From Wenzhouxiangella sp. XN79A (lineage in GTDB: Bacteria; Pseudomonadota; Gammaproteobacteria; Xanthomonadales; Wenzhouxiangellaceae), in assembly GCF_012272825.1 (NCBI RefSeq), contig NZ_JAAWWS010000166.1, positions 11,601-75,600 on the forward strand: a stretch of DNA of 64,000 bases, written 5' to 3'. The translations under genes and the position numbers were made by a program. Positions 17,747-46,409 of the stretch are shown piece after piece. The notes under the pieces were generated by a model. The model was not told the DNA's origin. It searched no databases and saw nothing but the letters and a program-made list of their open reading frames with translations. Positions within the stretch are counted from its first letter, which is position 1, and the number at the start of each line of letters is the position of its first letter.

Positions 17747-18139
17747 GTGCGGAAATTCCTTGCCCTGGTTTGCGCCGGCCTGCTGCTCGCCGGCTGCGGT
17801 GAACGGGAGGCGGCCGAAGCCGCATCGTCGGCGGAGGACGGCTCCGGGACCGTCAGCGGCACGCTGGACGGCGTGCCGTTTCGCCTCGAGGCCCGCTGCA
17901 TCGATCATCCGACCGACCGGTTCCGCTTCCGGTCCGAAGAAAGCAACGGCATGCGGCTGTCCGGCATGCAGCGCGGCGACAAGCTGATCGTCGACTACAC
18001 GGACGGAGCGTCGAATTTCAGCACCCCGAACCTCGAGACCTTCGAGAAGAGCGCCACGGGCGCCAGCGGTTCGGGTGCGCTGTTCGCCGAAGGCGGCGGA
18101 GCGAACGTCGACCTCGTGTTCCAGCTTCGCTGCGACTGA
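17747..18139 (+). CDS. Small lipoprotein of unknown function
   Basis: 130 residues beginning with GTG and MRKFLALVCAGLLLAGC, giving a lipobox with Cys at 17. The mature part is a small beta-rich domain (GTVSGTLDGVPFRLEARC to VDLVFQLRC) with two Cys that may pair. No known family was recognised. AGGAG lies just upstream of the start (CAGGAGAACCCC). It is convergent with the large secreted protein gene; the 119 bases between hold only GC-rich inverted repeats and no T-run. Confidence 0.7.
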   Translation: MRKFLALVCAGLLLAGCGEREAAEAASSAEDGSGTVSGTLDGVPFRLEARCIDHPTDRFRFRSEESNGMRLSGMQRGDKLIVDYTDGASNFSTPNLETFEKSATGASGSGALFAEGGGANVDLVFQLRCD

Positions 18140-18258
18140 CGCGGAAGGAACACAAGTCCGGTCGGCATCGTCGCATCTCGAGCCTCGATCGCCTCGTGCG
18201 TTCGACCGGGTCCCGACGCGCCGGCGCGCCCGCCCTCTCGCGGGTCCCGAACCACCGC

Positions 18259-31643: not shown

Positions 31644-32258
31644 TCAGACCGGCAGAGGCTCTCCGACCGACGCGGTCGCGGTGATCCGGAGCACGCCGCA
31701 CGCCGAGACGTCCATGTAGTCGCGAAGTGCGCCGAACGTCGAACGCGCCCCGGCAACGACCGCGTCCGGATCGACGGTGTCATCGGATTCCGCGGCATCG
31801 AGGAAGGCGCGGAAGCCAGGCCAGTGGACGGTTCGCATCGCGTAATAGGCCGTGCACAGCCGGGCGTGGGAACCGAATCGCTCGGTCAGACGCTTGCAGA
31901 TCAACCGCGCACCCAGGGTCGATCCTTCGAGCACGTAGATGGCGCCCAGACGTTCGGAATCGGTTCGCGGCAGCCAGCCATCGTAGGAAGACCGGACCCG
32001 GGGTCGGCGGGTCACGCCGGACAGGTAGGCGAGATCACGATCGACCCGGGGCAAGCGGGGGATGTAGCTGTACTTCGCGCTGTGGAACAAGGCAAGTTCC
32101 GGATCGAAACGGCAGAAGAAACAGGCCCAATGCCCGAGCAGCAGGGCGTATTCATCGAGATCGAAATCCGGGCGAAAGATCGATTTCAGCAACTCGGCTT
32201 CTTCGACGGCGCGGTGGTCGTCGACGGTAGCGTGGCGAAGCGTATCGGCAAGTCCCAT
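31644..32258 (-). CDS. Biliverdin-producing heme oxygenase
   Basis: 204-residue heme oxygenase that opens heme to biliverdin, CO and Fe2+, drawing electrons from a reductase or ferredoxin. His15 in TVDDHRAVE is the likely proximal heme ligand, and the distal-helix signature GAIYVLEGSTLGARLI is well kept, as in bacteriophytochrome-associated enzymes. It is the last gene of the bilin operon, 17 bases after the FAD reductase, with an AGGAG Shine-Dalgarno seven bases before its ATG. The isomer made (IX-alpha or other) cannot be told from sequence. Confidence 0.9.
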   Translation of the reverse strand: MGLADTLRHATVDDHRAVEEAELLKSIFRPDFDLDEYALLLGHWACFFCRFDPELALFHSAKYSYIPRLPRVDRDLAYLSGVTRRPRVRSSYDGWLPRTDSERLGAIYVLEGSTLGARLICKRLTERFGSHARLCTAYYAMRTVHWPGFRAFLDAAESDDTVDPDAVVAGARSTFGALRDYMDVSACGVLRITATASVGEPLPV

Positions 32259-32275: not shown

Positions 32276-33463
32276 TCAGGCCGCCGGCTTCAGGACGGTC
32301 CGGACGATCTGGAGTTGGTCGGCTTCGGCAGAGCGGCCGATCAGGCGACTCGAGAGCATTTCTGCCGTTTCGGAGTCCATCCGATAGTTCACCATGCTGA
32401 CCCGCCGCACCAGGTCATCCTCGGTCAGGATGCAGATTCCCTGCTCCTTGGAATCCGACCAGTCCTCGCCGATCGCCTTCATCTCGGCGGCATTGCCGAC
32501 GCCGATCGATTCCAGGCGCATGTCCAGGAATTCCGAATACAGGAAGGAACTCGGCTTGAACTGCACGTCGTCACCGGCCAGGTTGCGGCCGGCGGCGGCT
32601 CCGGACCGGAGCGCATTCTCTTCGTGGCGAAAACTCGAGGCCTGCACTCCGAAGCGCGCGACATCCCCGCAGGCAAACACGTCCTCGAGCCCCTTGATCC
32701 GGAGCCGAGCGTCCACCGCCAGGCCGTGCCTGGAGACTTCCGGATCGTGCGAAACGAAGTCGACGCTCGGCTGCTGGCCGATGACCGGAATGACCACATC
32801 GGCATCGAGCTGCTTGCCGTCGCTGAGCTGGACCCGCCCGCCCGGCTCGAGCCGGATCGCACGGCGACCGGTAATGCACTCGATTCCGGCAGCCTGCAGC
32901 CGCGCCCGGATCCGTACAGCCAGCGGTTCCGACAGATAGCCGGTCAGCGGCGCCTCGGAGGAGATCACGAGTTTGACGCGGATTCCGTTGGCACTCAGGG
33001 AGCTGGCCAGCTCCACGCCGAGCAGACCGCCACCGATGACCACGGCCGATCCTCCCGCCGCCAGTTTCTGTCGGACGCGACGGAAATCGGCGAGCGAATT
33101 GAAGTACACCGCTTCGGCGCAATCGCCCGGAAGCCGGCGGGGCTGTAGACCGGTGGCGATCAGCAACTGCTCGTAGCGCACTTTCTCTCCGGATGAAAGG
33201 GTCAGCAGATGCCGATCGAAGTCGGCTTCCGTGACCCGCGTCGCCGGGTGATACTCAACGCCGAACCGGGCCGGGTTGTAGAAACAATCGGAAACGGCCA
33301 TGCCTTTCCACAGCTGCTTGCTCAAAGGCGGCTTGCGGACCGGCATGTCCGACTGATCGGACAGCATCATGATCGTGGACACCGTGTCCCGGGAGCGGAA
33401 CGACTTGACGGCGGCCATTGCCGCCATCCCGCCACCGATTACAACGAGGTCATGAAATATCAT
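32276..33463 (-). CDS. FAD/NAD(P)H-dependent reductase (AIF/ferredoxin-reductase type)
   Basis: 395-residue pyridine nucleotide-disulfide oxidoreductase-type flavoprotein with FAD motif VVIGGGMAAMAA at the N-terminus, NAD(P)H motif VVIGGGLLGVELASSL (about 140-160), and VFACGDVARFG near 275. It has no redox CxxC. Its family includes putidaredoxin/rubredoxin reductases that feed [2Fe-2S] proteins, so it probably reduces the operon's ferredoxin for the heme oxygenase and bilin reductase. The ATG at 33463 is used; it overlaps the end of the phosphatase gene by 14 bases. Confidence 0.82.
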   Translation of the reverse strand: MIFHDLVVIGGGMAAMAAVKSFRSRDTVSTIMMLSDQSDMPVRKPPLSKQLWKGMAVSDCFYNPARFGVEYHPATRVTEADFDRHLLTLSSGEKVRYEQLLIATGLQPRRLPGDCAEAVYFNSLADFRRVRQKLAAGGSAVVIGGGLLGVELASSLSANGIRVKLVISSEAPLTGYLSEPLAVRIRARLQAAGIECITGRRAIRLEPGGRVQLSDGKQLDADVVIPVIGQQPSVDFVSHDPEVSRHGLAVDARLRIKGLEDVFACGDVARFGVQASSFRHEENALRSGAAAGRNLAGDDVQFKPSSFLYSEFLDMRLESIGVGNAAEMKAIGEDWSDSKEQGICILTEDDLVRRVSMVNYRMDSETAEMLSSRLIGRSAEADQLQIVRTVLKPAA

Positions 33464-33971
33464 TATCGAAGCCCCTGTCTTGATTCCACGTCGATTCGAT
33501 CCACAACAACGCCGCCAGTGCCAACCTGGTGAGCCGGAGCTCGTCGTTCGTCCGGGCCACGGCCGCCCAGGCACTCAGGGGATCGAGCCTCCGAGCGACC
33601 ATCAGCCCGGCGGCGGCGACAAGCGGGGATCGGCTGAGACCGAGATGACAGAACACCACGACGCGCTCGCCCTGCTCGAGTGAACGGACCAACGCCCGCA
33701 CCGCTCGCAGAAGATTGGCGCGAAGCACCGGCGTGGAGTGCTCGAGAAAATCCCGGGCGCCGAGCTGCTCTCGACCGTCCCACGGGTCCGATGCGGAGAA
33801 AGGATCGGCCAGCCGGAAGACCATGCCTTCGATTTCGATCGGAGTCTCGTCGCGATCGAGAAGATCGGACGCACCGACACCGCACAGACTGATCCAGCGA
33901 TTGAAGCCCTCGCGCTGCCAACCTCGAAACGCTTCGCTATCCGGCAGAGGTGACACGGTCACCGCGTTCAC
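33450..33971 (-). CDS. Cys-based dual-specificity-type phosphatase
   Basis: 173 residues with GTG start at 33971, favoured by GAGGG eight bases upstream and an 11-base gap from the previous gene. The signature CHLGLSRSP gives catalytic Cys108-x5-Arg114 on a P-loop, as in DSP/PTP enzymes; the residue before Cys is Phe rather than the usual His. Asp56 or Asp62 (LADPFSASDPW) could be the general acid. In an operon with a Ser/Thr kinase it is likely to reverse that phosphorylation. Weak similarity means the substrate class is uncertain. Confidence 0.75.
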   Translation of the reverse strand: MNAVTVSPLPDSEAFRGWQREGFNRWISLCGVGASDLLDRDETPIEIEGMVFRLADPFSASDPWDGREQLGARDFLEHSTPVLRANLLRAVRALVRSLEQGERVVVFCHLGLSRSPLVAAAGLMVARRLDPLSAWAAVARTNDELRLTRLALAALLWIESTWNQDRGFDNDIS

Positions 33972-33982
33972 CGCGCCGGCCC

Positions 33983-34594
33983 TCACGCGGCGTGGCTCCG
34001 CGGCGACCGGACGTAGCCCTCGAATTCGTCGAGCACGTCGAGACAGTCCGCGTCGAGCCGGCCGCCGTGATCGGCACCGGACGGATCGAAAAAGAAGAGC
34101 CCCGCCCAACTCGTTGCATCCAGCATCTGCATCTGCGCGAGCAACTGAGCCTTGGACGGCAGCGCGAACGGGACCGGGTCACTATCGGCAAGCAGGATGG
34201 AGAATCGGTCGACCATCTGGAGCGCGTAGGCGAACCGACTGATCTCGGCCAGGTGCAACAGCACGACGATGCGTTGATACGGCACATCGATAGACCGGAG
34301 AAGCGACAGTGCACCGGCGCTCGACTCCGGCGGAACCGCCGGACGGGAACCGAGCACGACCGGATTGCGCATGCCATCGAAGACTTCCCCGAGGCGATGG
34401 ATGCGCTGCGCACGCCCGAGCAGGCCGGCCACGCCGAAGCGCGCGATTCCCTGCTGATCGAAGACCGGGGCAAGCACCGAGCTTGCGCTGAGCTCGATGA
34501 CCAGCGAACTGCCGTCGTCGACCACACCGAGGGCATCGAGATGACGGACGGCAAGCGGATTCGTGTACAGAATGCATTCGATCGAATTTCTCAT
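33983..34594 (-). CDS. Unknown bilin-operon protein, 203 aa
   Basis: I recognise no family. The 203-residue protein is mixed alpha/beta, with no signal peptide or membrane helix. The N-terminal half has strand-helix alternation (SIECILYTNPLAVRHLDALG, SLVIELSASSVLAPVF), the middle a segment rich in Arg/Leu helix (RIVVLLHLAEISRFAYALQM), and the end an acidic helix. Its ATG overlaps the kinase stop (ATGA), so it is translated with the kinase and may be its partner or regulator. Confidence 0.55.
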   Translation of the reverse strand: MRNSIECILYTNPLAVRHLDALGVVDDGSSLVIELSASSVLAPVFDQQGIARFGVAGLLGRAQRIHRLGEVFDGMRNPVVLGSRPAVPPESSAGALSLLRSIDVPYQRIVVLLHLAEISRFAYALQMVDRFSILLADSDPVPFALPSKAQLLAQMQMLDATSWAGLFFFDPSGADHGGRLDADCLDVLDEFEGYVRSPRSHAA

Positions 34595-36231
34595 GGACGG
34601 ACCTCACCTTCTTGCGGTTGATCGGGCTCGCCGGTACTGGGCTCGATCGAACGCCTCTGACGTGGACGGAGCCGGAGCGGAGACAGCCATTGCCGTCGGA
34701 CCCGCCCGGTTTCGGAAAAGGAATAGAGTCGGACCTGGCCGGATTGAAGCCAGGCAATGCAGCCGTTTCGCGTCAGCGATACGTTTCGAGTGCCGGGATC
34801 CAGCGCGATCCGCTGGCGACAGATGCCGTTCTCGATCGTCTGCGCTTCGAACGACACCGGCCGCTGCACGCTGCGCAGCAGCAAGCGAAGCGAGCCGTCC
34901 TGCGAAACTCGCAATCCCTCGGCCATGCCGTCGAGGTCACGCGACCAGCGCACGACGAGATTCCGGTCTCGGCAGACCAGTCGATCCTGCAGGTTGCCCT
35001 CGATCACATAACAGCGGTCCGTCGTCAGCGCGATCAGGTCGCTGTTGACGAACCCTTCGAGTCGCGTCCGCGCGATATCGGCGCTGCCGCGCGAGGCGCA
35101 GAACAGCCAGTTGTTGCTCAGCCAGGCCTCGCCGTCCTCTGCAACGGCAATCGCGTCGGGCACGTGCCGCAGCCAGCGGACATGGCTCAGCCGGTCGAAC
35201 TCGACGCACCACTGCCACAGGTCGGAGCCCTGAACGAAGTACAGTTCGTCGCCATGCCAGATCGGCGATACGCTCGAGCACGATACGGAGCCGATGGTGC
35301 GGCCCGTGGCCTCACGGACCACGAGATTGCATCCGGCGTGGAACGCCACAAAGCGGCCGTCGTCGCTGGACAGGACGGTGTCGAAAGGGCCACGATGCGA
35401 GCGCGCATGCCGCTTCACCAGGCCTGCCGGAACGACCGTCGCTGATCGCGGCAATACGGACCGATCGTCGCTTGCGCCCTTCATCAGCAACGCCAGCGCT
35501 TCACTGGCGTGCTCGGGCCGATTCCGTTCGTCGTTCTGGAGCAGACGGGACAGCAGGTTGCGCAGCGCCAGGCAGGGCACGCCGGACAATTCGGGAATCG
35601 TGTAGCGCGCCTCGCGATAGATCGCAGAGGGCATGCCACGGTTCGGCACGCTGCCGCGCAGCGCTTCCAGCAGGACAATCCCCAGCGAAAACAGATCGGA
35701 ACGAAGCGACGGGTGGCCGTCGACCGATTCCGGAGCCTCGTACGCCGGAGATGCCGAACGCCATTTCTGCTGCTCGACTTCCTGGAAATACGCGCTGCTG
35801 CCGAAGTCGGCGAGAAAGAACCTCAGTGAGCTGCCGTCTCTACGAACGAGGATATTCTCGGGCTTCAAGTCGCTATGGAGCATCCGCTGCGCATGCAGGC
35901 AACGCAACGCAACCATCAGATCGTGCGCCAGCCGCTTGACCAGGTCCGGAGACCAGATCGATCGCCGTCGAAGCCACTTTCGCAGGCTGCCGGAGGAGAA
36001 CCACGGGTAGATGAGCGCACAACGCGTGTTATCGATGAACACGGTATCGAGCGGCGCGACGATCTGGTCGCGGACCGGAAGAGCGAACACGTTGAGTTCC
36101 CGACGGTAGCGGTTGCCATCGACCAGCTTGATGAAGACCTTGTTGCGATCGTTGTTGTCGAAGGCGACGTACACGTTGTCGTTCGGGCCGCCCCGGATCG
36201 GACGGATTCCGGAGTACGCGCCACCGAGCAT
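34591..36231 (-). CDS. Ser/Thr protein kinase with propeller-like C-terminal domain
   Basis: 546 residues (ATG at 36231; an in-frame GTG at 36255 would overlap the V4R gene by 20 bases). The kinase has the catalytic Lys35 (VFIKLVD), HSDLKPEN with Asp121 and Asn126, ADFGSS with Asp142, and SPAYEAPE. The glycine loop (RPIRGGPNDNV) is loose. The last 230 residues are strand-rich repeats (VREATGRTIGSVSC, LVCRDRNLVVRWSRDL) that look like a quinoprotein/WD40 propeller and may read out a partner. No membrane helix: a cytosolic kinase, unlike the one at 24676. I recall that the cyanobacterial V4R/ferredoxin cluster also carries a Ser/Thr kinase (SpkG). Confidence 0.85.
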   Translation of the reverse strand: MLGGAYSGIRPIRGGPNDNVYVAFDNNDRNKVFIKLVDGNRYRRELNVFALPVRDQIVAPLDTVFIDNTRCALIYPWFSSGSLRKWLRRRSIWSPDLVKRLAHDLMVALRCLHAQRMLHSDLKPENILVRRDGSSLRFFLADFGSSAYFQEVEQQKWRSASPAYEAPESVDGHPSLRSDLFSLGIVLLEALRGSVPNRGMPSAIYREARYTIPELSGVPCLALRNLLSRLLQNDERNRPEHASEALALLMKGASDDRSVLPRSATVVPAGLVKRHARSHRGPFDTVLSSDDGRFVAFHAGCNLVVREATGRTIGSVSCSSVSPIWHGDELYFVQGSDLWQWCVEFDRLSHVRWLRHVPDAIAVAEDGEAWLSNNWLFCASRGSADIARTRLEGFVNSDLIALTTDRCYVIEGNLQDRLVCRDRNLVVRWSRDLDGMAEGLRVSQDGSLRLLLRSVQRPVSFEAQTIENGICRQRIALDPGTRNVSLTRNGCIAWLQSGQVRLYSFSETGRVRRQWLSPLRLRPRQRRSIEPSTGEPDQPQEGEVRP

Positions 36232-36235
36232 GGTT

Positions 36236-36910
36236 TCAACGACAGAGGAATTCACAGATCTCGTCCGGTGGCGTCCGGTCGTCGACCATCGAGCGAATCT
36301 GGTCGATGCGTGCCGGTGCGGTGATGAGGAATTCGGTCTGCGGGGCACCCAGTAGCGGTGAGGCGATCTCGGCGTAGTCCAGGTCGCGACGGCTCATGGC
36401 CTCGAACATTCCGACCAGCATGCCGCCGACCATGTGATCCACGGGCTCGGCGAGGTCGCTGAGCGCGCGCGCAAAGATGCTGTTCTTGAAGGTCACGCGG
36501 ATCAGGCCTGCCGAGCGAGCCATCGATAAATCGAAATCGGCCCGTCCCCACCCATGAAGCTGATAGTACGACTCCAGCACGGAGAAGAACGACTGCACCG
36601 AAAGACGGTCGAGGCCTTGCGGCGCGATCTCGTTGACCTGCCGGTTCAGCGTCTTGGCGGTGCGCCGACCCCAGGTGAGCCCGGCGGTCTTCAGAATCAG
36701 CGACCAGGCCTCGCCGGTTTCATGCAGCAGCGCTTCATAGATGCCCCGTATGACATCCTCGGACAAATAGATGACGCGATATTCGGCATAGCCGCGAACC
36801 GTCCCTTCGTCGAGCGTGTAACAGAGCTGATCTTCACCGAAGATCCGCTGGAGGACCATTTCCGTAGCTTCGGTCTGAGTCGTTTCCTGAATGGGTGCAG
36901 GGCTGGACAT
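36236..36910 (-). CDS. V4R-like protein (divergent)
   Basis: 224-residue protein of the same general build as the V4R protein at 38319: N-terminal helices, then PVDHMVGGMLVGMFEAMSR as the V4R helix, a strand, and PQTEFLITAP for the terminal strand. The Cys residues that mark the usual V4R end pattern are missing (the segment reads IASPLLGAPQTEFL). V4R domains bind small molecules, including in BchJ-like and regulator proteins. It follows the globin after three bases. The call rests on arrangement and gene context more than strong identity. Confidence 0.6.
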   Translation of the reverse strand: MSSPAPIQETTQTEATEMVLQRIFGEDQLCYTLDEGTVRGYAEYRVIYLSEDVIRGIYEALLHETGEAWSLILKTAGLTWGRRTAKTLNRQVNEIAPQGLDRLSVQSFFSVLESYYQLHGWGRADFDLSMARSAGLIRVTFKNSIFARALSDLAEPVDHMVGGMLVGMFEAMSRRDLDYAEIASPLLGAPQTEFLITAPARIDQIRSMVDDRTPPDEICEFLCR

Positions 36911-36913
36911 GGA

Positions 36914-37504
36914 TCAATCCCCGGTAAGAATTTCGCGAACGATTTCGACATGCGGCTTGAGCAGAAGGTAGTGCGGCTCGTCGAGCGATTGCTGGTAGTT
37001 ACGATCCATGAGGAGATAGGTCTCGTAGAGCGACTGCAACCCGTCCGGCAGGCCGTTGATGCGTTCGGCATCTTCATTGCTGCCGAACAGAACGCTCTCC
37101 TTCGGTTTGACCCGCCCCGGAAAATTGAAGGCCTGGAGAATGGTCTTGAGCCAGAACAGCAGCTTGTCCTTGTACCATTGATTGTCGTTCATCAACATGG
37201 CCTGAATGGCGTAGGTGCTTACGTTGGTCGCATCACGAACGCACTTCTCCGGTGCCAGTTTGTGCTTCTCGGCGTACGGGTAGACCTCGAAGATCCGGTT
37301 GATCGCATCGCTGACTACGTCGGCTTCCACCGCATAGGCGGCTTTTGCGGCATCCGCCCGCTCCGCCCAGTCCGGAAGAAGGCGTCGATAGATCGATAGT
37401 TCGTCTTCCGTCAGATGGCGGGCTTCGGCATCCTTGAATATCCGACGGAGTTCGTCGGGAAGTTCGGGTCGGGCAGTGTCGACCACTGCTGCATTGGCAC
37501 TCAT
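36914..37504 (-). CDS. Phycobiliprotein-like globin (BBAG-type, bilin-biosynthesis-associated)
   Basis: 196-residue all-helical protein. The segment EKCVRDATNVSTYAIQAML, with Cys88, Arg90 and Asp91, matches the phycobiliprotein C-x-R-D helix that holds bilin Cys84, followed by Trp110-Tyr111 and LLFWLKTIL like the next phycobiliprotein helix. LTEDELSIYRRLLPDW and AINRIFEVYPYAEKH correspond to the earlier helices. I infer a bilin-binding globin that is a relative of, not a true, phycobiliprotein. Its start overlaps the preceding stop (ATGA). Covalent binding would need the Cys and a lyase or self-attachment. Confidence 0.75.
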   Translation of the reverse strand: MSANAAVVDTARPELPDELRRIFKDAEARHLTEDELSIYRRLLPDWAERADAAKAAYAVEADVVSDAINRIFEVYPYAEKHKLAPEKCVRDATNVSTYAIQAMLMNDNQWYKDKLLFWLKTILQAFNFPGRVKPKESVLFGSNEDAERINGLPDGLQSLYETYLLMDRNYQQSLDEPHYLLLKPHVEIVREILTGD

Positions 37505-38316
37505 TCCTTGCCTCCTTCACTACGGCGGTTTTCGTTCTCGGAGCTTCGGTCCACGGCATCGTCGGTTGCTGCAGGCACCCGCTCCCGTTCACGCAGCTCG
37601 ACCACTCGCCGGACGTGGTCCGGAACCTCGCCGCCATCCGGGTCGACCGAGAAGCGCTCGCCCGGAGCGCCGTCGGCCGGATCCGCCGGATCGGATTCCG
37701 CCGTCGGGTCGTCGGCATGGGCGTCCGTGTCACCATCCCAGTTCAGGTTCTCGAAGAAATCCTGCGCGTCATCCTGCGCGTCGGATTTCCGTTCGTTCAT
37801 CGATCGCTCGACCGCCGATCGTTCGCTCATGCTTGGCTCCTCCTGCTTCGTTCCCGCGCCGTCCCAGGGCATGTCGCTAAGGAACTCCGCCGCGCCCTTC
37901 TCCACTTCATGACGCGATGCCTCACCGCCGACGTTCGCGCTTTCGGCATCCGTCGGCGAGCGGGGTGCCTCGCCTGGTTCCCAGGGCATTTCGGCAAACA
38001 GCTCCTCTGCCGTCTGATCGAATAGCGCGTCGGCCTCAGGATCGTCGGCCCGGCGTGGCTCCGGCGCCGCAGCTGTCGCTTTCGATGCAGGCCCGGCGAT
38101 CGCCACATCCGCATTCGTCGCCTCGGCTTTGTCCTCGATGCCGATGGCGTCAACGCCACCGGCCCCTACTTCCGAGCCGTCGACCGACGACGAGTGGACC
38201 GTGATGGGCTCGTAGAGCTCCAGTTCGTCGACCTCCTTCAACCCACGCACCTTCAGCGCCTTTCGCACCGTGGCCAGCGTGCCTCTCAACAGTCGAGCGT
38301 TCATGTCTTGGTTCAT
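37501..38316 (-). CDS. Acidic disordered protein with three Trp short motifs
   Basis: 271 residues, low-complexity and acidic apart from a short N-terminal basic helix (RLLRGTLATVRKALKVRG). Three copies of one motif lie in the disordered part: EELFAEMPWE (Trp112), EFLSDMPWD (Trp151) and DFFENLNWD (Trp193), i.e. acidic-(L/F)-(F/L)-x-x-(M/L)-(P/N)-W-acidic. No enzyme domain is seen. Such spaced motifs usually dock one partner several times, so this may be a scaffold or linker for V4R or globin proteins. It sits between them, two bases after the V4R gene and overlapping the globin start. Confidence 0.7.
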   Translation of the reverse strand: MNQDMNARLLRGTLATVRKALKVRGLKEVDELELYEPITVHSSSVDGSEVGAGGVDAIGIEDKAEATNADVAIAGPASKATAAAPEPRRADDPEADALFDQTAEELFAEMPWEPGEAPRSPTDAESANVGGEASRHEVEKGAAEFLSDMPWDGAGTKQEEPSMSERSAVERSMNERKSDAQDDAQDFFENLNWDGDTDAHADDPTAESDPADPADGAPGERFSVDPDGGEVPDHVRRVVELRERERVPAATDDAVDRSSENENRRSEGGKE

Positions 38317-38318
38317 GC

Positions 38319-38981
38319 CTAGTCCTCGATCTTTTCGAGAATTTCCTTGGCCGAAGCCCCTTCACTGCGCCAGAACTCCGCGGCGTTGACCTTCTTTTCC
38401 TCGCCGACGAGGAACTTGCAGACGTCGCTGCCCATGGAATAGCACTGCACCTCGATGCTCTGCAGGTCGGTGCGATGAAAGAAGCTGAAGGCCCCGGCGA
38501 ACAATCCGGCGTACATGTGGCACACCGGCTTACCGACGATCTGCATCGACTGGGCCACCGCCGAATTCCTGATCTCGATGACGGTGAAGTCCCGCTTCTT
38601 GAACTCCAGATCGAGCCGCCAGGCCCCAAAGCCCATGATGGTGAGCGGCCACCACCAGCATTCCCAGACGAACTTGGGATTCATCTGCCAGATTTCGCGC
38701 TTTCCGCCGCCGAATTCCTGACGCATCCGAGCAGCGAAGCGCTTCATGTCTTCCAGACCCCAAGCGATTCCGCACCGATACATCAGCAAACCGCTGGAGG
38801 CGCCTACTTCTTCCTCGATCCCGAGGTGCAGTCCGACCATGAATGCTTCGGTCACTTTCGCCGCGCGCTGACCGTCCCGAAGGAAGATCTCGCCGGTCTT
38901 CGGATTGGATCGGAAGAACTCATCGGGCACGTAGTAGTTGTGGTAGCCCGCGTATCCGCCGATCGCCGTATCGATTGACAT
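38319..38981 (-). CDS. V4R domain protein
   Basis: 220 residues. The last 70 form a V4R (4-vinyl reductase) domain: PVCHMYAGLFAGAFSFF, then EVQCYSMGSDVCKFLVG, with Cys154, Cys180 and Cys188, close to the family's C-x-G-x-x-C-x-F end. The first 150 residues hold an alpha/beta region with Trp-rich YWW-like WECWWWPLTI. The ATG at 38981 follows GGAG in the ferredoxin's stop region; the two genes are 7 bases apart. Family members bind tetrapyrrole intermediates or hydrocarbons; a bilin or precursor is the sensible guess here. Confidence 0.78.
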   Translation of the reverse strand: MSIDTAIGGYAGYHNYYVPDEFFRSNPKTGEIFLRDGQRAAKVTEAFMVGLHLGIEEEVGASSGLLMYRCGIAWGLEDMKRFAARMRQEFGGGKREIWQMNPKFVWECWWWPLTIMGFGAWRLDLEFKKRDFTVIEIRNSAVAQSMQIVGKPVCHMYAGLFAGAFSFFHRTDLQSIEVQCYSMGSDVCKFLVGEEKKVNAAEFWRSEGASAKEILEKIED

Positions 38982-38988
38982 GGTCAGG

Positions 38989-39453
38989 TCACTCCTGTTC
39001 GACAAGGACACTGAAATCCATGTCCTTGAGTTTCATGATTTGCGTTCGAATGATGATCTTGTTGGCTTCCACCAGGACCTGCCCGGTCCGGGGGTGGAGA
39101 ATCGGCACGCTGGTCCGTTTGCCGACCTGGGTCTCGAGGTCCTGAAACGACTCGACGTACAACCCGTCGGGCAGTTCGAGGTCTACCCCACCACCCTGCA
39201 CCTTGCACTGACAGGCAAGTCGACTGTTTTCCTGTGCGCCCGTCAGGATCGACAGAGTCATTTCTTCGCGATTCGTCGGCGCCGACAGACCTTCGCTGCC
39301 CGAGCGGACATAGACATGACAAGTGGCACACAGCCCTCGGCCCCCGCAGAGTTTCTTGACCTGGACATTGGCCCCGATCAGGACATCGAGGAGGGACTGA
39401 TCTTCGTTGGCCGGGACCTTTCGGCCCTGGATCGTTACCTCAGGCATGCTCAT
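38989..39453 (-). CDS. [2Fe-2S] ferredoxin with C-terminal extension
   Basis: 154 residues. The plant/adrenodoxin-type cluster ligands are Cys36, Cys42, Cys45 and Cys81 (KLCGGRGLCATCHVYV and RLACQC). An extra ~50 residues after the ferredoxin fold (VPILHPRTGQVLVEANKII) are unusual and may dock a partner. It starts at the ATG at 39453 inside the end of the giant gene; another ATG at 39447 is equally possible. It would pass electrons from the FAD reductase to the bilin reductase and heme oxygenase. Confidence 0.85.
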   Translation of the reverse strand: MSMPEVTIQGRKVPANEDQSLLDVLIGANVQVKKLCGGRGLCATCHVYVRSGSEGLSAPTNREEMTLSILTGAQENSRLACQCKVQGGGVDLELPDGLYVESFQDLETQVGKRTSVPILHPRTGQVLVEANKIIIRTQIMKLKDMDFSVLVEQE

Positions 39454-42400
39454 GGCCTCCCGTCGGCGGGCTCAGCAGTGCGAGCGCGACCGGCTCACAG
39501 AACGCATGGACGTTTTTGGGAAGGTGGCTGCGCAGCATCTTCCGGAGTCGGCGGACTTCGGCCGGGTCCTCGATACGAGGAATCCGGCACGTTCCGCCTG
39601 CACCGTCGCGAGTGCCGGCAGTCGGAACGGTCGAGATCCTTCCCATCAGGGCCAGCATCGCGAGGACATGGACCAGCGTCAGCGAATCCAGCGGGGAGGT
39701 GGCCGTCGATGTCCGGTTCAGTCTGGTGCTCCAGCCGCCGGCTTCCTGCATCGCTTCGATCCATCGCGCGCCATGGCTCGACAGCCTGGCGGCCAGCCAT
39801 GCCTGGGCCACTGCACTGGACCGCTTTTCGGCAGCCTCTCGCTCCGTCGATGACTGCCTGTAGATCGAGGCATCGATTGTCTCGGCAAAGCGCTGAACGT
39901 CGTCGAAACTCCAGTCGGCCAGGGGTCGTGCACAGAGTTGTACGAGCGCAGATCGCTGACCGAAGTCATCCCCGCGCGCTACCGCGAACGCGTAATCCCG
40001 CGCCGATGCGCGCACCGCTTCGATGCTGTGCTCGGCAATCTTCGGCACCGAGCGCTTCAACAGACCGCCGCGAAGAGCGTTCGGATCTGCGCTGGACGCG
40101 GAATGCAATGCGGCCCGGAGCAGATTCATCTGTGATTTCACGGTCGTCTCGTCGGGCAGCGGCCAGTCGTTGAGCTGCGATACGTCGATGAAGGATTGGT
40201 GCGCCATGCCGAACGTGCGACGGGACGCAACGACGAAATGTTGCCAGAGACGCTGCTCGCCACGGACGGCTCGACCCCGACACCAACCGCGGACGTCGGA
40301 CTCGACGGAATCGAGCGCATTAAGCTGCTGCCGTGCGACCAGCGCCTTGCCGATCTCCGTCTGACAGGCGATCAACTCCGGCAGGAGGCGCTCGTCCAAT
40401 GCCTCGCGGAGCCGCTTGATCAAAGCAGCGGACGACGATTTCCAGGTCTCCGGTGGCAAGCCGGCCACCGTCGGGGTGGCGTCGACCAGCGTTTGGCAGA
40501 GTTCGGCACGCCCGCCCCGCCAATCGCCGAGGCTCGCCGCCACGACCATTCCACCCAGGAACGAACGCCACTCGGCCTCACTGGCCTTGTCTTCGGTGAA
40601 CAGGTGCTCCTCGGCTTGCAGGATTCGTTCGGCGAAAACCCGGCAGTTGGAGAGATGCGATGCCGCCTGGCCGAGGTGCGAAGTCCAACCGACAACCGCC
40701 GCCTGGCATTCGTCGGGAACCCTTGCCGAAGTTTCCTTCGCCAGGGCCGCGGCGAACCGGACCGGAAAGTCGGGATCGCCGCCTTCGATCGGCAGGACGC
40801 TGGCCAGCCAGTAGCGCGGCAATTCCAGCGCGATCAGCGGTTCCGTCTCGCTCGCCAGGAGATCTCCCATATGCCGCACCGAGTCGACCAGGGCGTTCGG
40901 CAGCGCGGCCGGAAGGCTGCCGGCAATTCCGGCCGCGTCCGCCGCTGCGCTCAGTGCTCTGCGGCCGAGCAAGCCGGCATCGTCGCTCCAGCATCGTCCG
41001 ATCGTGATGCGGCGAGCGATCGCGCGCAGTTCGCCGAGCAGCTGAATCCACAGCGCTGCCGCAGGCGCCTCCAACTCGGCCGCCAGTTTCCCTTCGAGTT
41101 GCTGCAGCTCTTCGGCCACGATGGAGAAGCCGCGCGCGCCGATCGCCGAGCCGACGATGGGCAGGATGTCCTGCACGGCGATCTTGAAATCACCGTGCCG
41201 ATCCAGGGCGGCCATCCAGGCCGATTGCCAATCGGGCGCCTCGGCGTCGTTGAATCGCGCGAGAAGATGCTGCACGGCATGCTGGAAGGGTTCCGAGGCA
41301 CCGCTGGAGTCGCCGATCGGCGGCGTCGCCAGGGCGCGGTCGGGCACGGCGCTCCTGCTGGCCGACGCGGCCCGCGTGCCGAGGCCCAGCAGGCTGTGGA
41401 AGAACTGGGCGATTCCTCTCTGCTGCTCGGCCGAGAGATTGGCCTGAAGCGCATCGGTCAGGGACTTCCAGCAATCGGCTTGTGCAGGAAAATCATGCCG
41501 GAGCAACCAGTGGACCTCGGGGACGATCCAGATCTGCCACTCCTCGTCCACGCGTGGCGTCTTGTTGCCCGGCAATCGGGCCAGCAAGGTGATGATCCGT
41601 CGAAACCGCTGACGCGCCCGCTCATCGGTCCCGGCAAGTTCTGCGGCCAGTTCGTTCTGCATCGTCCAGAGGCGCAGGACGGTCGACTCGTTCATGCCGC
41701 GGTCGATCATCGCCGCGACGTCTTCGCGGTCGAGATTCAAGGAAGACGCGACCCGTTCGACAATTCCCGATTCGAAGAACTCGACGACGGTTTCGGGCCG
41801 GGTCCGGCCCGCCACGACATCGTCGCTGGCGAATTCCACCAGGCCCGGGCCGCTGACCTCGCGTTCGGCGCCAAGCGCCCGGTCGATGTACTCGGCTGCC
41901 AGGGGAGCCCAGTCCATGGACACCGCCGCCCAGACCTCCCGAAAGTCCGCTGCACCGGCGCTGCGCGCGACCTCGAACTGGGACAGCGCGCGCAGCACAC
42001 CGTGCAGACGAGCTCCGGCCGTGGACGACAGCGGTTGATCGATCCGGCTCAATTGAGCCGCGATTCTCTGGGTGCTGCGCCAGATCGGCCGCTCGCTTTC
42101 GCTGCCGGCCAGGAGCGCCGCGTAACGCCGGAAGTTCTGCTCGGCGTCGGCCGATTGATCGGCCGCCGTAACCGAGCGGGCGATCACGTTCATCAGCTGT
42201 TGCAGCGTGCGGGTGGCATCTTCGGTCGGTAGGCGTTCACTGACTTCAGCCGCGATGGTGCTGGCAAAGCCGGCCGATTCGCGGTCTGCAGCGCCTCTCC
42301 ATGCGGCCAGCTCGCGCACGTCCTCGAGCAGCAGACAGAGGCGCTCTGCGACATCGTGCAGCCAGTCGAGCTCGTAGCGTTCGTGACCCGGTCGGATCTT

Positions 42401-43432
42401 GTTCAGCAAGGTGTCGAAGAATTCGCGCAGCTCGTCGATATCGAGATCGACGGTCTGCGTCAACCGCTCGGGGTCGACGGCATGAATGAACGCGGCTCGA
42501 TGGGTTCGCGAATCGCCGATCAGCGTCAGAACCAGAATCCAGTCGACGAGATCGTCGTCGAGCATACGGAGTGCACGAGCGTGCACCGTTCGAAGGTTGC
42601 GGACGAACGCCAAGCGATGACCGCTCCGCGCCAGGCCGCGGAACAGGGCGAAGGTACGCTCGTCGAGACTGCCTCCGACCCGTTCTTCGATCGCGAAGGT
42701 AAGCTGGCGGCTCAGCATGCGCCATTCTTCCGCAGTAAGCTGCGCGGCCTGGTCGACCGAATGGACCAGACGGCGGAAGAACTCGAAATCGAGCGCGTGG
42801 TGCCGAAGCGGGCGCAGCCGCGCCCAGCCGTTCAACCAGGCGTTCAGCTCCTCGCCGATCGCATCGGCATCCTCTCGTTCGCTCAGACCGGCTTCCGAGA
42901 GCGCTTGCGCAACGATCGCTTCGGGCTCACGCAGCTTTCTGCGGGCGGTCAGACGGTCGACCGCTCCGCGCACGTCCCGGAGAGCAGCGTGCAGAAGCAT
43001 CGATTGCTGACGTGTGAGCACCGCACCCAGGCGGCCCTGGACCATGTTCAGCGCAAGCACTGCCGGACCGGGCGGCAGTGCTTCGAGCAGGCGCTCCGCG
43101 GCGGGCATCAGGTCGAGTCCACCGGGTCGGCGCCCCGAGACGCGTGCCTCGATTTCGTCCAGGCACTCCCGGAGCATCTCCGTGGCCTTGCGGAGATCGA
43201 CGTCACCGATCTTCGCCTGCAGCGCTTCGTTGCGACTGAACTCGATGACGAGCTTGCCGCGTTCTTCGGCCAGCACAGCGCTGAGTCCTGCGCCTTCACG
43301 GTCGAGAAGATAGGTCTCGCAGCAGGACAGGGCGTGGGGTTCGAACAGACGGGCCGCTTTCTTGTCGTGCGCGGCGGCCGATGACTTCGTCGCCGCGGCG
43401 GCAGCATTCTGAAGGGTGGCGTCGAGGTTCAT
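39440..43432 (-). CDS. Giant helical bilin-operon protein of unknown fold
   Basis: 1330 residues and the largest gene of the operon. It is predicted by eye to be helical nearly throughout, with no signal peptide, membrane helix or catalytic motif I recognise. A disordered Ser/Ala/Pro linker near residues 690-715 and another near 1270 split it into parts. No CxRD globin motif or V4R pattern was found in it. It starts at 43432, overlapping the bilin reductase stop (ATGA), and ends overlapping the ferredoxin start, so its amount is linked to both. A scaffold for the assembly is the simplest idea, but this is inference. Confidence 0.65.
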   Translation of the reverse strand: MNLDATLQNAAAAATKSSAAAHDKKAARLFEPHALSCCETYLLDREGAGLSAVLAEERGKLVIEFSRNEALQAKIGDVDLRKATEMLRECLDEIEARVSGRRPGGLDLMPAAERLLEALPPGPAVLALNMVQGRLGAVLTRQQSMLLHAALRDVRGAVDRLTARRKLREPEAIVAQALSEAGLSEREDADAIGEELNAWLNGWARLRPLRHHALDFEFFRRLVHSVDQAAQLTAEEWRMLSRQLTFAIEERVGGSLDERTFALFRGLARSGHRLAFVRNLRTVHARALRMLDDDLVDWILVLTLIGDSRTHRAAFIHAVDPERLTQTVDLDIDELREFFDTLLNKIRPGHERYELDWLHDVAERLCLLLEDVRELAAWRGAADRESAGFASTIAAEVSERLPTEDATRTLQQLMNVIARSVTAADQSADAEQNFRRYAALLAGSESERPIWRSTQRIAAQLSRIDQPLSSTAGARLHGVLRALSQFEVARSAGAADFREVWAAVSMDWAPLAAEYIDRALGAEREVSGPGLVEFASDDVVAGRTRPETVVEFFESGIVERVASSLNLDREDVAAMIDRGMNESTVLRLWTMQNELAAELAGTDERARQRFRRIITLLARLPGNKTPRVDEEWQIWIVPEVHWLLRHDFPAQADCWKSLTDALQANLSAEQQRGIAQFFHSLLGLGTRAASASRSAVPDRALATPPIGDSSGASEPFQHAVQHLLARFNDAEAPDWQSAWMAALDRHGDFKIAVQDILPIVGSAIGARGFSIVAEELQQLEGKLAAELEAPAAALWIQLLGELRAIARRITIGRCWSDDAGLLGRRALSAAADAAGIAGSLPAALPNALVDSVRHMGDLLASETEPLIALELPRYWLASVLPIEGGDPDFPVRFAAALAKETSARVPDECQAAVVGWTSHLGQAASHLSNCRVFAERILQAEEHLFTEDKASEAEWRSFLGGMVVAASLGDWRGGRAELCQTLVDATPTVAGLPPETWKSSSAALIKRLREALDERLLPELIACQTEIGKALVARQQLNALDSVESDVRGWCRGRAVRGEQRLWQHFVVASRRTFGMAHQSFIDVSQLNDWPLPDETTVKSQMNLLRAALHSASSADPNALRGGLLKRSVPKIAEHSIEAVRASARDYAFAVARGDDFGQRSALVQLCARPLADWSFDDVQRFAETIDASIYRQSSTEREAAEKRSSAVAQAWLAARLSSHGARWIEAMQEAGGWSTRLNRTSTATSPLDSLTLVHVLAMLALMGRISTVPTAGTRDGAGGTCRIPRIEDPAEVRRLRKMLRSHLPKNVHAFCEPVALALLSPPTGGHEHA

Positions 43433-44202
43433 AGCGCCATGCTCCGTGCTGCGACCACGGACCCATCGGCCGGGACGCTGCGCCCGTCGACGCGAGCGGG
43501 CCCGAAGTGCCAATCCTTCAGGAGTTCATCGGCGGCCTTCTGACCCATCTTGACGCCGAGCAATCGGTGGCCGGGCGAATTCTCGTAGTGGTGGAATTTG
43601 TACCGTTCGACATCTTCGTGGTCGGACCCCGAACGTCCAGCGGACAGGCTCGGATTCCAGAACGATCGGATCGTTGTGGCGAGATAGTCGTTGAAGGCCT
43701 GGCGCAGCTCCGACAGACGGGATACCTCGCAGCTTCCGTACAGCACCCATGGCATGGCGATCTCTTCGAACCACGCGGGGCGTTCACGGTTTTCCGGGAA
43801 GCGTGCCCGCCAGTATTCGCCGAGTGCGCCGAATTCACGGTCGAGACGATCGACCAGCGCCGGTTGCCGGCCGCAGACTTCGACATCGAGAATCAGCGCA
43901 TGCACCCGGTCACCGAACACGACCCATTCGGCGGCGAATACCGGAAAGACCTCGGGGCTCGCCGTGGGGTAGACCATGACCGTGGCGATGTCCATGGCCG
44001 CGCCGCGGATTCGAGCATACCGACCGCACAGCCGGTCGCCGGCGATCCGCCACCCCTCGCTTTCGATCTCGAAATGCTTCGAGCCGATCGCCAGCTGCTG
44101 GTGACGGAATCGAGCCGGACGCGTTTCGTCTTCCAGATCGAACTCGGACATCTGTCCGAGGAAATCGGACCGCGTCCAGGCGACGTAATCGGAGTGCTGC
44201 AT
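43429..44202 (-). CDS. Ferredoxin-dependent bilin reductase (pre-PcyA-like)
   Basis: 257-residue FDBR. VMVYPTASPEVFPVFAAEW, then VHALILDVEV (Asp106), WFEEIAMPWVLY, and the late HRLLGVKMGQKAADELL with HFGP follow the order of PcyA: by my alignment Asp106 equals catalytic Asp105 of PcyA, whereas the PcyA His88 position (…LHCVMFP) reads ATVMVYP, with no His. It would reduce biliverdin by two-electron steps from ferredoxin; the product cannot be told. The ATG at 44202 is supported by AAGGGGG eight bases upstream. It is the first gene of the operon. Confidence 0.78.
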   Translation of the reverse strand: MQHSDYVAWTRSDFLGQMSEFDLEDETRPARFRHQQLAIGSKHFEIESEGWRIAGDRLCGRYARIRGAAMDIATVMVYPTASPEVFPVFAAEWVVFGDRVHALILDVEVCGRQPALVDRLDREFGALGEYWRARFPENRERPAWFEEIAMPWVLYGSCEVSRLSELRQAFNDYLATTIRSFWNPSLSAGRSGSDHEDVERYKFHHYENSPGHRLLGVKMGQKAADELLKDWHFGPARVDGRSVPADGSVVAARSMAL

Positions 44203-44756
44203 TCGACGAACCCCCTTGGTTGCTGTGAAGGCAGAAGAGTCTTTGGATGTGAATGATTTCTCCAGAAATCGTGATGTTGAAGTGAACGACACACCGGAGC
44301 CTGTTCTTCGAACTGCAACCTCGCTGCAATGTTCGTATCGATCGCGCTTGACGGCAGCGTGACGCTGATCACCTTTTCTGGATGTCAGCCGCCAACTCCC
44401 GCCCAAGCACCGTCCAGAACCGAGACATCTCGACCGACCCTGCGATATGCTCGAGACTATGGGTACGCTACAGTTGAAACGATGAATAGCGTGAACCCGA
44501 AACGACCGCTTCACTGCTCAACCGGGGTCCATCAACGGCTCAGCTCGTCTTCACGACGTCTCGATGGCTCCGCTGTCGCTTCGTGAATGAAGCAACCGGA
44601 TACATTCGGGTCGCTACGATCGCCGGTTTTCGATCGGACTGAACGCGGTGTGCCGGCGCCCGTATCGTTGAACTCGCGCACTCGGTCCAGGCCCGCGCAA
44701 CCACGATGGAAAAACATCATCGGGACCGACAACGGGCGCATGCAGGAGCACATCCA
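44203..44756. promoter_or_regulatory. Divergent intergenic region of the bilin operon
   Basis: The 554 bases separate the bilin operon (leftward) and the TPR-GGDEF gene (rightward). The leftward half has distinctly lower GC than the genome average here and holds the perfect palindrome at 44255-44270. I see no convincing paired -35/-10 for either direction, and short frames in this stretch have no recognisable domain. The operon promoter should lie between 44203 and about 44350. Confidence 0.5.
44255..44270. promoter_or_regulatory. 16-bp perfect palindrome, candidate operator
   Basis: GATTTCT-CC-AGAAATC is a perfect inverted repeat with a 2-base centre. It lies about 53 bases upstream of the bilin reductase start, where a repressor or activator of the whole operon would be expected to bind. 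No regulator gene is in the operon, so the partner protein is not known. Confidence 0.4.
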
Positions 44757-46409
44757 ATGACGCATCAGACCGTACCGACCTCGTCCCGGGTTCTTTCGAT
44801 CATCGGCGCAGCGCTGCTGGCTGCAATGGTGGCGGCCGAGGCCGCTCCCGGGTCGGATCCCCTTTCGACACTCCGGGACGCGATCGAACGGCACGAACGC
44901 GACGGCGACTACCGATCGATGATCCTGGCGGCGGTGGAACTCCGGGACACCGCAAGGGCACCGGAGGATCGCATCCATGCCCAGCGTTCGCTGGGCCGCG
45001 GTTATGCGCTGCTCGGCGACCAGGACCGAGCGGTCGAAGCGCTGAGCGAAGCGATGGGACAGGTCCGTCCCGGCATGTCGCCGACGCTGCTGGCCGAGCT
45101 CTATCGTGACACCGCCGGAATGCTCGGCGAACTCGGGCGTTACGAACAGGCCTTGTCGCTGGTCGAGCGGGGGCTCGGCGCGCTGCGTGAAGAAAACGAG
45201 CCCGACCTGGAAGCTGCGCTGCTGGTGATGCGCGGCTCGATCCTGGGGGCGCTGGGCCGTCTCGACGAAGCGATGGCCAGCATCGAGCAGGCCATGGACC
45301 GACCGCTGTCGACGCCCCGCCAGGAGATCATGCGGCGCAACAATCTGGGCATGATCCACAAGTGGCGCGGCGAGCTGGAGCCGGCGCTATCGGCGTTCGA
45401 AGCGGTGTACCGGCAAGCCTTGGAGGCCGGCAGCGAACAGCTGATCGTCTATGGCCTGCTGGAGCTCGGCGACGTCGAGCGGCTGCTGGGCAATCGCAGC
45501 GATGCGCGAATGCACCTCGAGGACGCGCTCGGGCGCGCCGAAGCCGCCGGCGAGGAGCGCTGGCAGTTGTTCGCCCACAACTACCTCGCAGAGCTCGAAG
45601 CCGAGCAGGGCAACGCCGAGGCCGAGGCCCGTCACCGCGACGCGGTGGCCGCCATCCGGTCTGCACTGCAGGGCCAGGCCGTCGAGAACCGGGCGCGGGT
45701 GCTGGAAGTCAGTCTCGAAGTGCTCGAGCGCGAACGCGAGATCGAGCAACTGCGGATGGAACGCGCGCTGCAGGAAGTCCAGCTGGAACGAGGTCGAACG
45801 CTGATCCTGCTGGCCGCGATCGCCGGAGTGCTGCTGCTGTTTGCCCTATGGCTGGCCGTGCAGCAGAGCCGGGTGCGCGCATCGGCCAACCGCGAGCTGG
45901 ATCAGCTGGCCAACACCGACACCCTGACCGGCCTGCGCAATCGACGGTACTTCATCGACCACCTGCGTCGACGCATGACCGACGAAACGGTTCGCGGTGC
46001 ACTGATCCTGATCGATGTCGATCGGTTCAAGCGGGTCAACGACGACCACGGCCACGAGGTCGGCGACGTCGTACTGAGAGACGTCGCGCAGCGGATCCAG
46101 GCCATGATGCGCAGCGAGGACACCGTCGCCCGCTGGGGCGGTGAGGAGTTCCTGGCCTTCCTGCCGAAGTGCACGGCAGACGCGGCGCTGCAGGTCGCGG
46201 AGCGGATTCGCGAAGCCATCGATTCCACGCCGGTGATCCACGACGACGCGACGCTGTCGGTCACCGCGACGCTGGGCGTGGCCGAGATCGGCGATGACGG
46301 GGACTTCGAGCGCGCACTTCGAGATGCCGACCATGCGCTCTACCGGGGCAAACAGAGCGGCCGGAACTGCGTGCGGATCGCAACGCCGGACCGGTCAGCG
46401 ATGTCCTGA
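44757..46409 (+). CDS. TPR-GGDEF diguanylate cyclase
   Basis: 550 residues starting at the ATG at 44757, nine bases after GGAG. An N-terminal signal-like segment precedes a TPR region (to about 300), a coiled-coil stretch (LEVLEREREIEQLRME), a membrane helix (LILLAAIAGVLLLFALWLA, about 360-380), and a GGDEF domain with LTGLRNRRYF, LIDVDRFKRVND and WGGEEF. The I-site RSED is five residues before the GGEEF, so feedback inhibition is likely kept. It makes c-di-GMP. It is divergent from the bilin operon, which raises the question of a shared signal. Confidence 0.88.
   Translation: MTHQTVPTSSRVLSIIGAALLAAMVAAEAAPGSDPLSTLRDAIERHERDGDYRSMILAAVELRDTARAPEDRIHAQRSLGRGYALLGDQDRAVEALSEAMGQVRPGMSPTLLAELYRDTAGMLGELGRYEQALSLVERGLGALREENEPDLEAALLVMRGSILGALGRLDEAMASIEQAMDRPLSTPRQEIMRRNNLGMIHKWRGELEPALSAFEAVYRQALEAGSEQLIVYGLLELGDVERLLGNRSDARMHLEDALGRAEAAGEERWQLFAHNYLAELEAEQGNAEAEARHRDAVAAIRSALQGQAVENRARVLEVSLEVLEREREIEQLRMERALQEVQLERGRTLILLAAIAGVLLLFALWLAVQQSRVRASANRELDQLANTDTLTGLRNRRYFIDHLRRRMTDETVRGALILIDVDRFKRVNDDHGHEVGDVVLRDVAQRIQAMMRSEDTVARWGGEEFLAFLPKCTADAALQVAERIREAIDSTPVIHDDATLSVTATLGVAEIGDDGDFERALRDADHALYRGKQSGRNCVRIATPDRSAMS

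Follow-up and report, generated by a model that had tools for sequence, protein, structure and literature searches.

The closest described relatives of the enzyme reported here are the pre-PcyA proteins, which are early relatives of PcyA, the enzyme of blue-pigment synthesis in cyanobacteria. They carry out A-ring reduction and are found in heterotrophic and anoxygenic photosynthetic bacteria, as described in PMC13193486 (FEBS J 2026). According to the main text of an earlier study (PMC10151467, PNAS 2023), pre-1 proteins lack the PcyA residues Glu76, His88 and Asp105, and pre-2 and pre-3 proteins retain Asp105, with Asn or Thr replacing His88; Thr at this place is the pre-3 residue. Glu76 is required for reduction of the 18-vinyl group. 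That text reports no phycocyanobilin (PCB) from any tested pre-PcyA: pre-1 gave weak and pre-2 good phytochromobilin production, and the pre-3 protein MBL9008304 produced phytochromobilin and phycoerythrobilin. The pre-1 protein POZ53557 of Methylovulum psychrotolerans formed small amounts of apparent phytochromobilin and was nearly inactive in a reporter assay. Pre-1 and pre-3 genes occur in clusters with genes for an Fe-S protein, two V4R proteins, one or two globins and, typically, a heme oxygenase (HO). The pre-1 type is further characterised by its place as first branch of the PcyA lineage when the tree is rooted with an outgroup. Among the bilin biosynthesis-associated globins (BBAGs) of these clusters, which are phycobiliprotein-like and in some cases have CXRD, BBAG-1 binds bilins, and the role of the BBAGs and their clusters was given as unknown (PMC10151467).

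The window, by which we mean the whole 64,000-nucleotide stretch of the Wenzhouxiangella sp. XN79A genome that was analysed, encodes an operon of twelve genes that runs from 44202 to 31644. All genes are in one direction, with short gaps or overlaps. In operon order, they are:

43429..44202, minus strand: ferredoxin-dependent bilin reductase, by its features a pre-1 type pre-PcyA (PF05996, AlphaFold2 model, fold matches)
39440..43432, minus strand: 1330-aa protein, overlapping the reductase stop by 4 bases
38989..39453, minus strand: 2Fe-2S ferredoxin-like protein (PF00111, E 1.2e-11)
38319..38981, minus strand: V4R-A (PF02830, E 4.9e-16)
37501..38316, minus strand: motif protein, 271 aa, low-complexity, with three motif copies
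36914..37504, minus strand: BBAG with the sequence CVRD (PF00502, E 4.4e-9)
36236..36910, minus strand: V4R-B (phmmer matches to V4R-B of L008, E 3.8e-40, and to V4R-A of the window, E 1.9e-9)
34591..36255, minus strand: Ser/Thr protein kinase with a long C-terminal part, start codon uncertain (PF00069, E 6.9e-27)
33983..34594, minus strand: MinD/ParA-like protein, 203 aa, without Walker A (predicted fold)
33450..34043, minus strand: dual-specificity phosphatase-like protein, CX5R present, start uncertain (PF00782, E 5e-7, just short of the cut-off for this family)
32276..33463, minus strand: FAD-dependent ferredoxin/rubredoxin-reductase-like flavoprotein (PF07992, E 7.8e-44)
31644..32258, minus strand: heme oxygenase (PF01126, E 3.5e-10), the sole PF01126 match of the genome

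The reductase frame (257 aa) starts with ATG at 44202, a few bases 3' of a ribosome-binding site rated good (AAGGGGG), and ends with TGA at 43429. The 4-base overlap of the reductase and 1330-aa genes recurs between the motif protein and globin genes. No Pfam or NCBIfam match at E 0.001 was found for the 1330-aa protein, and V4R-B has no Pfam V4R match. PDB matches of the flavoprotein include putidaredoxin, rubredoxin and biphenyl-dioxygenase ferredoxin reductases. A scan for promoters and terminators gave no signal above shuffles. The divergent neighbour of the operon (44706-46409, plus strand) appears by eye to encode a protein that combines TPRs with a diguanylate cyclase domain of the GGEEF kind.

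An earlier note on this DNA, made from the sequence alone, had read 43429-44202 as a bilin reductase gene. There is an exact open frame at this position on the minus strand, and its product belongs to the Pfam family PF05996 (E 9.7e-13; 48.7 bits, cut-off 31). It is the only PF05996 match in the host genome (3.75 Mb, 99.97% complete). Searched on its own against PDB sequences, the protein returned no match. Foldseek with an AlphaFold2 model built from six sequences (pLDDT 70.3, pTM 0.72) gave 19 matches at E <= 0.001, all of them bilin reductases except one chain of the FtsHi motor complex, a sequence relative of which (8xks_P) carries the name PcyA. The model was aligned structurally by VIA-align with PebB (6qx6; Z 17.2, 226 aligned, 4.0 A), PebA (2x9o; Z 17.2, 217 aligned, 3.5 A), HY2 (6kme; Z 16.8, 219 aligned, 3.4 A) and PcyA (2d1e; Z 16.5, 220 aligned, 3.8 A), and the model has the alpha/beta/alpha sandwich of these bilin reductases. 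Next in rank were red chlorophyll catabolite (RCC) reductase (14.0; range 13.5-14.0) and coproporphyrinogen oxidase (13.8). Given fold matches with Z of 16-17 and a conserved gene neighbourhood, the assignment is not a matter of chance.

Active-site residues were placed by aligning a profile of six relatives to PcyA structures in the PDB, among which the wild-type and H88Q pair 2d1e/3nb8 anchors His88:

43981..43983, minus strand: Thr74, at the place of PcyA His88
43927..43929, minus strand: Glu92, at the place of PcyA Asp105 and GtPEBB Asp-99
43885..43887, minus strand: Asp106, at the place of PcyA Asp119 (Asp in 6/6)
43588..43593, minus strand: His204-His205, invariant in the six aligned sequences

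None of the PcyA residues Glu76, His88 and Asp105 is present, their places being taken by Arg66, Thr74 and Glu92. Across the six sequences the His88 place reads T, S, S, T, N, N, and all six have Glu at the Asp105 place. The ATVMVYP stretch that the note had put at His88 is there, and its Thr74 aligns with that residue. The note's equation of Asp106 with PcyA Asp105 fell, however, because both the profile alignment and the relative L002/L018 alone put Glu92 at Asp105. Asp106 aligns with Asp119, so the earlier reading was one strand late. Eighteen columns are invariant among the six reductases, including Glu92, Asp106, Tyr201, His204, His205, Asn208, Ser209, Pro210 and Gly211. Of these six proteins, the window's reductase diverges most: its identity to each of the other five is 16-23%, and pairs of those five are 25-68% identical. 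It alone lacks the Arg of the FxR(P/K) motif (R166 in the FIRP stretch of PcyA, counted on the PDB alignment), which the other five and PcyA have.

In the profile alignment, PcyA Gln216 corresponds to His205 and PcyA Asp220 to Ser209. We take GtPEBB Asp-219 to be equivalent to PcyA Asp220, which would agree with the residue spacing and with a helix-loop-helix predicted at 194-207/210-219 of the model. From this alignment we infer that His205 occupies the place of GtPEBB Arg-215. As described in PMC6755814, Arg-215 is an essential, substrate-facing residue that PebB and HY2 strictly conserve, and it has a role with Asp-219 in A-ring reduction. The note had named a His within reach of the bilin D-ring as counter-evidence to its reading, and the invariant His205 may be such a residue. 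In GtPEBB, Asp-219 lies in the loop connecting two helices above the bilin, and Arg-215 and Asp-219 are four apart, the same spacing as His205 and Ser209. The same paper terms the central Asp on strand S4 critical in all ferredoxin-dependent bilin reductases (FDBRs), with vascular-plant HY2 (Asn) as the exception (PMC6755814). Here this Asp is replaced by Glu92, a conservative change common to all six pre-1-like sequences. Like PebB and HY2, the reductase has a basic residue at the Arg-215 place, but with His for Arg, Glu for the sheet Asp and Ser209 for the loop Asp. Since Glu92 is invariant and His205 falls at the Arg-215 place, pre-1-like enzymes may pair a sheet Glu with a helix His. The pair opens the origin of A-ring regiospecificity to study by point variants.

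The pre-PcyA kind named in the note holds, and by residues and cluster content the reductase fits the published pre-1 type, an enzyme type already known. It lacks all three PcyA catalytic residues, and the operon contains the Fe-S protein, two V4R proteins, globin and HO. In both respects it resembles POZ53557, from which it differs by the missing FxR(P/K) Arg. It shares with pre-3 MBL9008304 a similar cluster and Thr at the His88 place; pre-3, however, has Asp105 where this enzyme has Glu92. With Synechocystis PcyA it has the fold (Z 16.5 to 2d1e) and PF05996 in common but, without Glu76, His88 and Asp105, would not be expected to make PCB. A tree separated this reductase and five cluster-borne reductases from four remote PF05996 or RCC-reductase-like proteins (95/95), on long branches and with no named pre-1/2/3 or PcyA row. 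One PF05996 protein, from genome G342 (L005), served only as an outgroup row. For this protein (L005 / L013), which comes from the class sample, plant-type RCC reductase (PF06405, E 2e-15) is a better match than PF05996.

We consider it probable that this pre-1 type pre-PcyA is one step of a self-contained route from heme via a bilin to the CVRD sequence of the globin. The family, predicted fold, residues and operon come from the present analysis, and the pre-PcyA activity and bilin binding by BBAGs would be as in published relatives. Heme oxygenase would convert heme to biliverdin, and the flavoprotein and 2Fe-2S protein would supply electrons to the reductase. The reductase would then reduce the A-ring of biliverdin, most likely with two electrons, to phytochromobilin, with Glu92 on the sheet side in the role of the central Asp and His205 on the helix side in that of the PebB/HY2 Arg. 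Phytochromobilin would pass to the operon globin and be bound at the CVRD cysteine. Together, the motif protein, the kinase, the large protein and the MinD-like protein probably have the task of building and regulating a complex centred on the globin and the V4R proteins. The note had suggested a product other than PCB. This fits the published assays of other pre-PcyA proteins but is expected, not new, because loss of His88 is the pre-PcyA norm and tested members yield phytochromobilin (one also phycoerythrobilin). Overall, what the note observed is confirmed in part, and its interpretation is partly supported.

Two alternatives concern how much the reductase does, and we regard each as unlikely. 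The first is a four-electron enzyme that reduces the A-ring and then C15=C16, forming phycoerythrobilin like pre-3. Thr at the His88 place is the residue of pre-3, and the main text of PMC10151467 gives both phytochromobilin and phycoerythrobilin for MBL9008304. Against this, pre-3 retains the Asp105 that is Glu92 here, and the tested pre-1 enzyme was assigned a phytochromobilin-like product only. In the second, the reductase has little or no activity and is retained because it binds bilin or acts as a chaperone for the globin. Reductase activity may indeed be shifted or lost, judging from the sequence, because it diverges more than the other five although V4R-A is 65-74% identical, and because the FxR(P/K) Arg is missing in addition to the three PcyA catalytic residues; the published pre-1 enzyme was, in the same main text, nearly inactive in the reporter assay. 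However, 18 residues including Glu92 and His204-His205 are invariant across six distant members, and the operon retains a full electron supply.

That the substrate is a different open-chain tetrapyrrole, such as one from bacteriochlorophyll breakdown, is very improbable. It would suit a host with pufL, pufM, pufC and bchC and the structural kinship to RCC reductase (Z 13.5-14.0), but heme oxygenase is encoded in the same operon, RCC reductase ranks under the PebB, PebA, PcyA and HY2 rows, and the same cluster occurs in the genome G052 (L018), in which PF00124 has no match. A PcyA that makes PCB despite the residue changes is the most improbable reading of all: although the protein is a PF05996 member and PcyA is the best PDB score of the family profile, His88 is missing, as is the Glu76 that PMC10151467 describes in its main text as required for 18-vinyl reduction.

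The more interesting part of the locus, and the open one, is the set of conserved partners, not the missing His. One scan of genome contigs with V4R-A identified five loci besides the window, in Lysobacterales (L018, a contig of G052), Comamonadaceae (L019), Rubrivivax (L020), Opitutaceae (L021) and Verrucomicrobia (L022). V4R-A is present in these five by construction, as they were fetched with it; its identity between the window and the five is 65-74%. By phmmer, the reductase, 2Fe-2S protein, globin, V4R-B, kinase and MinD-like protein are each encoded in all six clusters, the phosphatase in three and the flavoprotein in two of the six; the heme oxygenase is encoded in four of the six within the flanks covered. 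A profile of the large protein from L019, L020 and L008 (genome G052) detected its counterparts in L022, at E 2e-35, and in the window, at E 4.8e-19, and the L021 protein, cut by the contig end, matches that of L022 at E 8e-152. Thus, a large protein occupies the same place in all six clusters. Four proteins beyond the published core are common to the six clusters: the kinase, the motif protein, the MinD-like protein and the one of approximately 1300 aa. These four, the phosphatase and the flavoprotein are not named as cluster members in the main text of PMC10151467, where the only use of "kinase" is in the title of a reference and the terms "phosphatase" and "ferredoxin reductase" are absent.

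In each cluster, the protein between V4R-A and the globin has short repeats of an FFxxLPW type, for example EFLSDMPWDG, GFFSQLPW and AFFRALPWSG. Copies of [FLYI][FLY]xx[LMFVIYA][PNGI]W stand at residues 106, 145 and 187 of the window's motif protein. There are likewise three copies in L019, L020, L021, L022 and a 120-aa protein of Acaryochloris (L035), and one in L008. Shuffles gave at most one match in any of 2000 per protein, against three observed in six of the seven middle proteins (one in L008), a descriptive comparison only because the pattern was written after the sequences were seen. The 11 remaining proteins of the window's cluster do not match the motif. Literature searches on slr0145 and on pre-PcyA with kinase, V4R and globin returned no account of the motif protein.

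The globin is the only match of the host genome to PF00502, the phycobilisome family. It lies beside HO and bilin reductase genes, and the Cys of its CVRD aligns with that of CLRD in phycocyanin beta. By analogy with published BBAG-1, the globin at 36914-37504 is a candidate bilin binder. The globin of L018 (G052) has APRD, with loss of the CXRD Cys, and thus covalent bilin binding is not universal in these clusters. The AlphaFold2 model of the MinD-like protein (pLDDT 81.6) matches FlhG (Z 12.4), VpsO (12.1) and FleN (11.7), higher than the best Z of 7-8 usual for unmatched models. Its P-loop place reads YTNPLAV, with no Walker A.

Two conjugative plasmids of Acaryochloris marina MBIC10699, pREC3 (L034) and pREC2 (L035), carry one V4R/Fe-S/globin cluster each. 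The loci encode a V4R protein, a small protein, a globin-like protein, a second V4R protein, a 2Fe-2S protein and an allophycocyanin-like globin, which we take to be the order of slr0144-slr0149. The small motif protein is absent from the pREC3 gene table; by eye, pREC3 has three loose motif copies, one of them strict, and it stands outside the shuffle count. No kinase of the operon type is annotated beside the Acaryochloris clusters in the 20-kb stretches. Like the operon, the slr0144-slr0149 cluster has a V4R pair, an Fe-S protein and a BBAG, and the Acaryochloris plasmids also have a small repeated-motif protein; unlike the operon, it has no bilin reductase and no heme oxygenase. In Synechocystis, Slr0144-Slr0149 are reported to interact by co-fractionation and AP-MS (PMC9880817).

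A tentative further proposal is that the gene products do not form a loose biosynthetic set but a bilin-globin complex with a scaffold and with regulation by the kinase. In it the motif protein, as a flexible element, would dock V4R, Fe-S or globin partners, together with the approximately 1300-aa protein, the MinD-like protein without a nucleotide-binding loop and the kinase/phosphatase pair, and the reductase would use a Glu/His site instead of Asp/Asp or Glu/His/Asp. The motif protein might have come to cyanobacteria as part of the slr0144-slr0149 cluster by inheritance, and in this anoxygenic phototroph the complex may serve the reaction centre in assembly, repair or sensing. The conserved partners, above all a motif protein of distant bacteria and cyanobacterial plasmids, provide handles on BBAG cluster function.

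PF05996 matches were found in 2 of 101 relatives, in 3 of 369 class-sample genomes (including RCC-reductase-like and remote proteins) and in 1 of 398 phylum-sample genomes. The V4R-A profile matched 6 of 398 genomes of the order, in full length with the cluster only in the window's genome (G000) and G052; the other four have short V4R matches. By these distributions the cluster is sporadic, which suits horizontal transfer. Low G+C was rejected as proof of transfer: the cluster (63.7%) lies below the remainder of the window (68.7%), but a different stretch of this contig is even lower, at 60.1%. A pattern search of viral contigs gave no match, and a further search of them gave 22 stretches, none confirmed. 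No relative of the reductase was found in plasmids and phages. One genome of 2.8 Mb (G464) encodes three divergent PF05996 proteins on three contigs (L004, L006, L007), with no PF01126 or PHY match.

A 279-kb contig of the host (C28, L049:6466-11157) encodes pufL, pufM, pufC and bchC, all scoring higher than their NCBIfam cut-offs. By its puf and bch genes the host is an anoxygenic phototroph, and it shares its order with a Lysobacterales MAG. PF00124 was matched in 11 of 101 relatives and in three of six sampled genomes of the host's genus; among those 11, only the window's own genome has PF05996. We rejected the idea that the cluster tracks phototrophy, because the cluster is also present in the G052 genome (L018), which gave no PF00124 match. 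As its genome combines the cluster with a type II reaction centre, the host offers a place to ask if BBAGs touch photosynthesis beyond phycobilisomes. No phytochrome PHY match was identified in the host genome. Genes that follow the bilin operon of G052 encode a hybrid kinase resembling phytochromes and a heme oxygenase, and a response regulator is also encoded beside the operon (for this set, L008:14210-17395 and 18121-18885, both on the minus strand). The hybrid kinase has PAS_2, GAF, PHY, PAS, HisKA and receiver domains and no N-terminal Cys.
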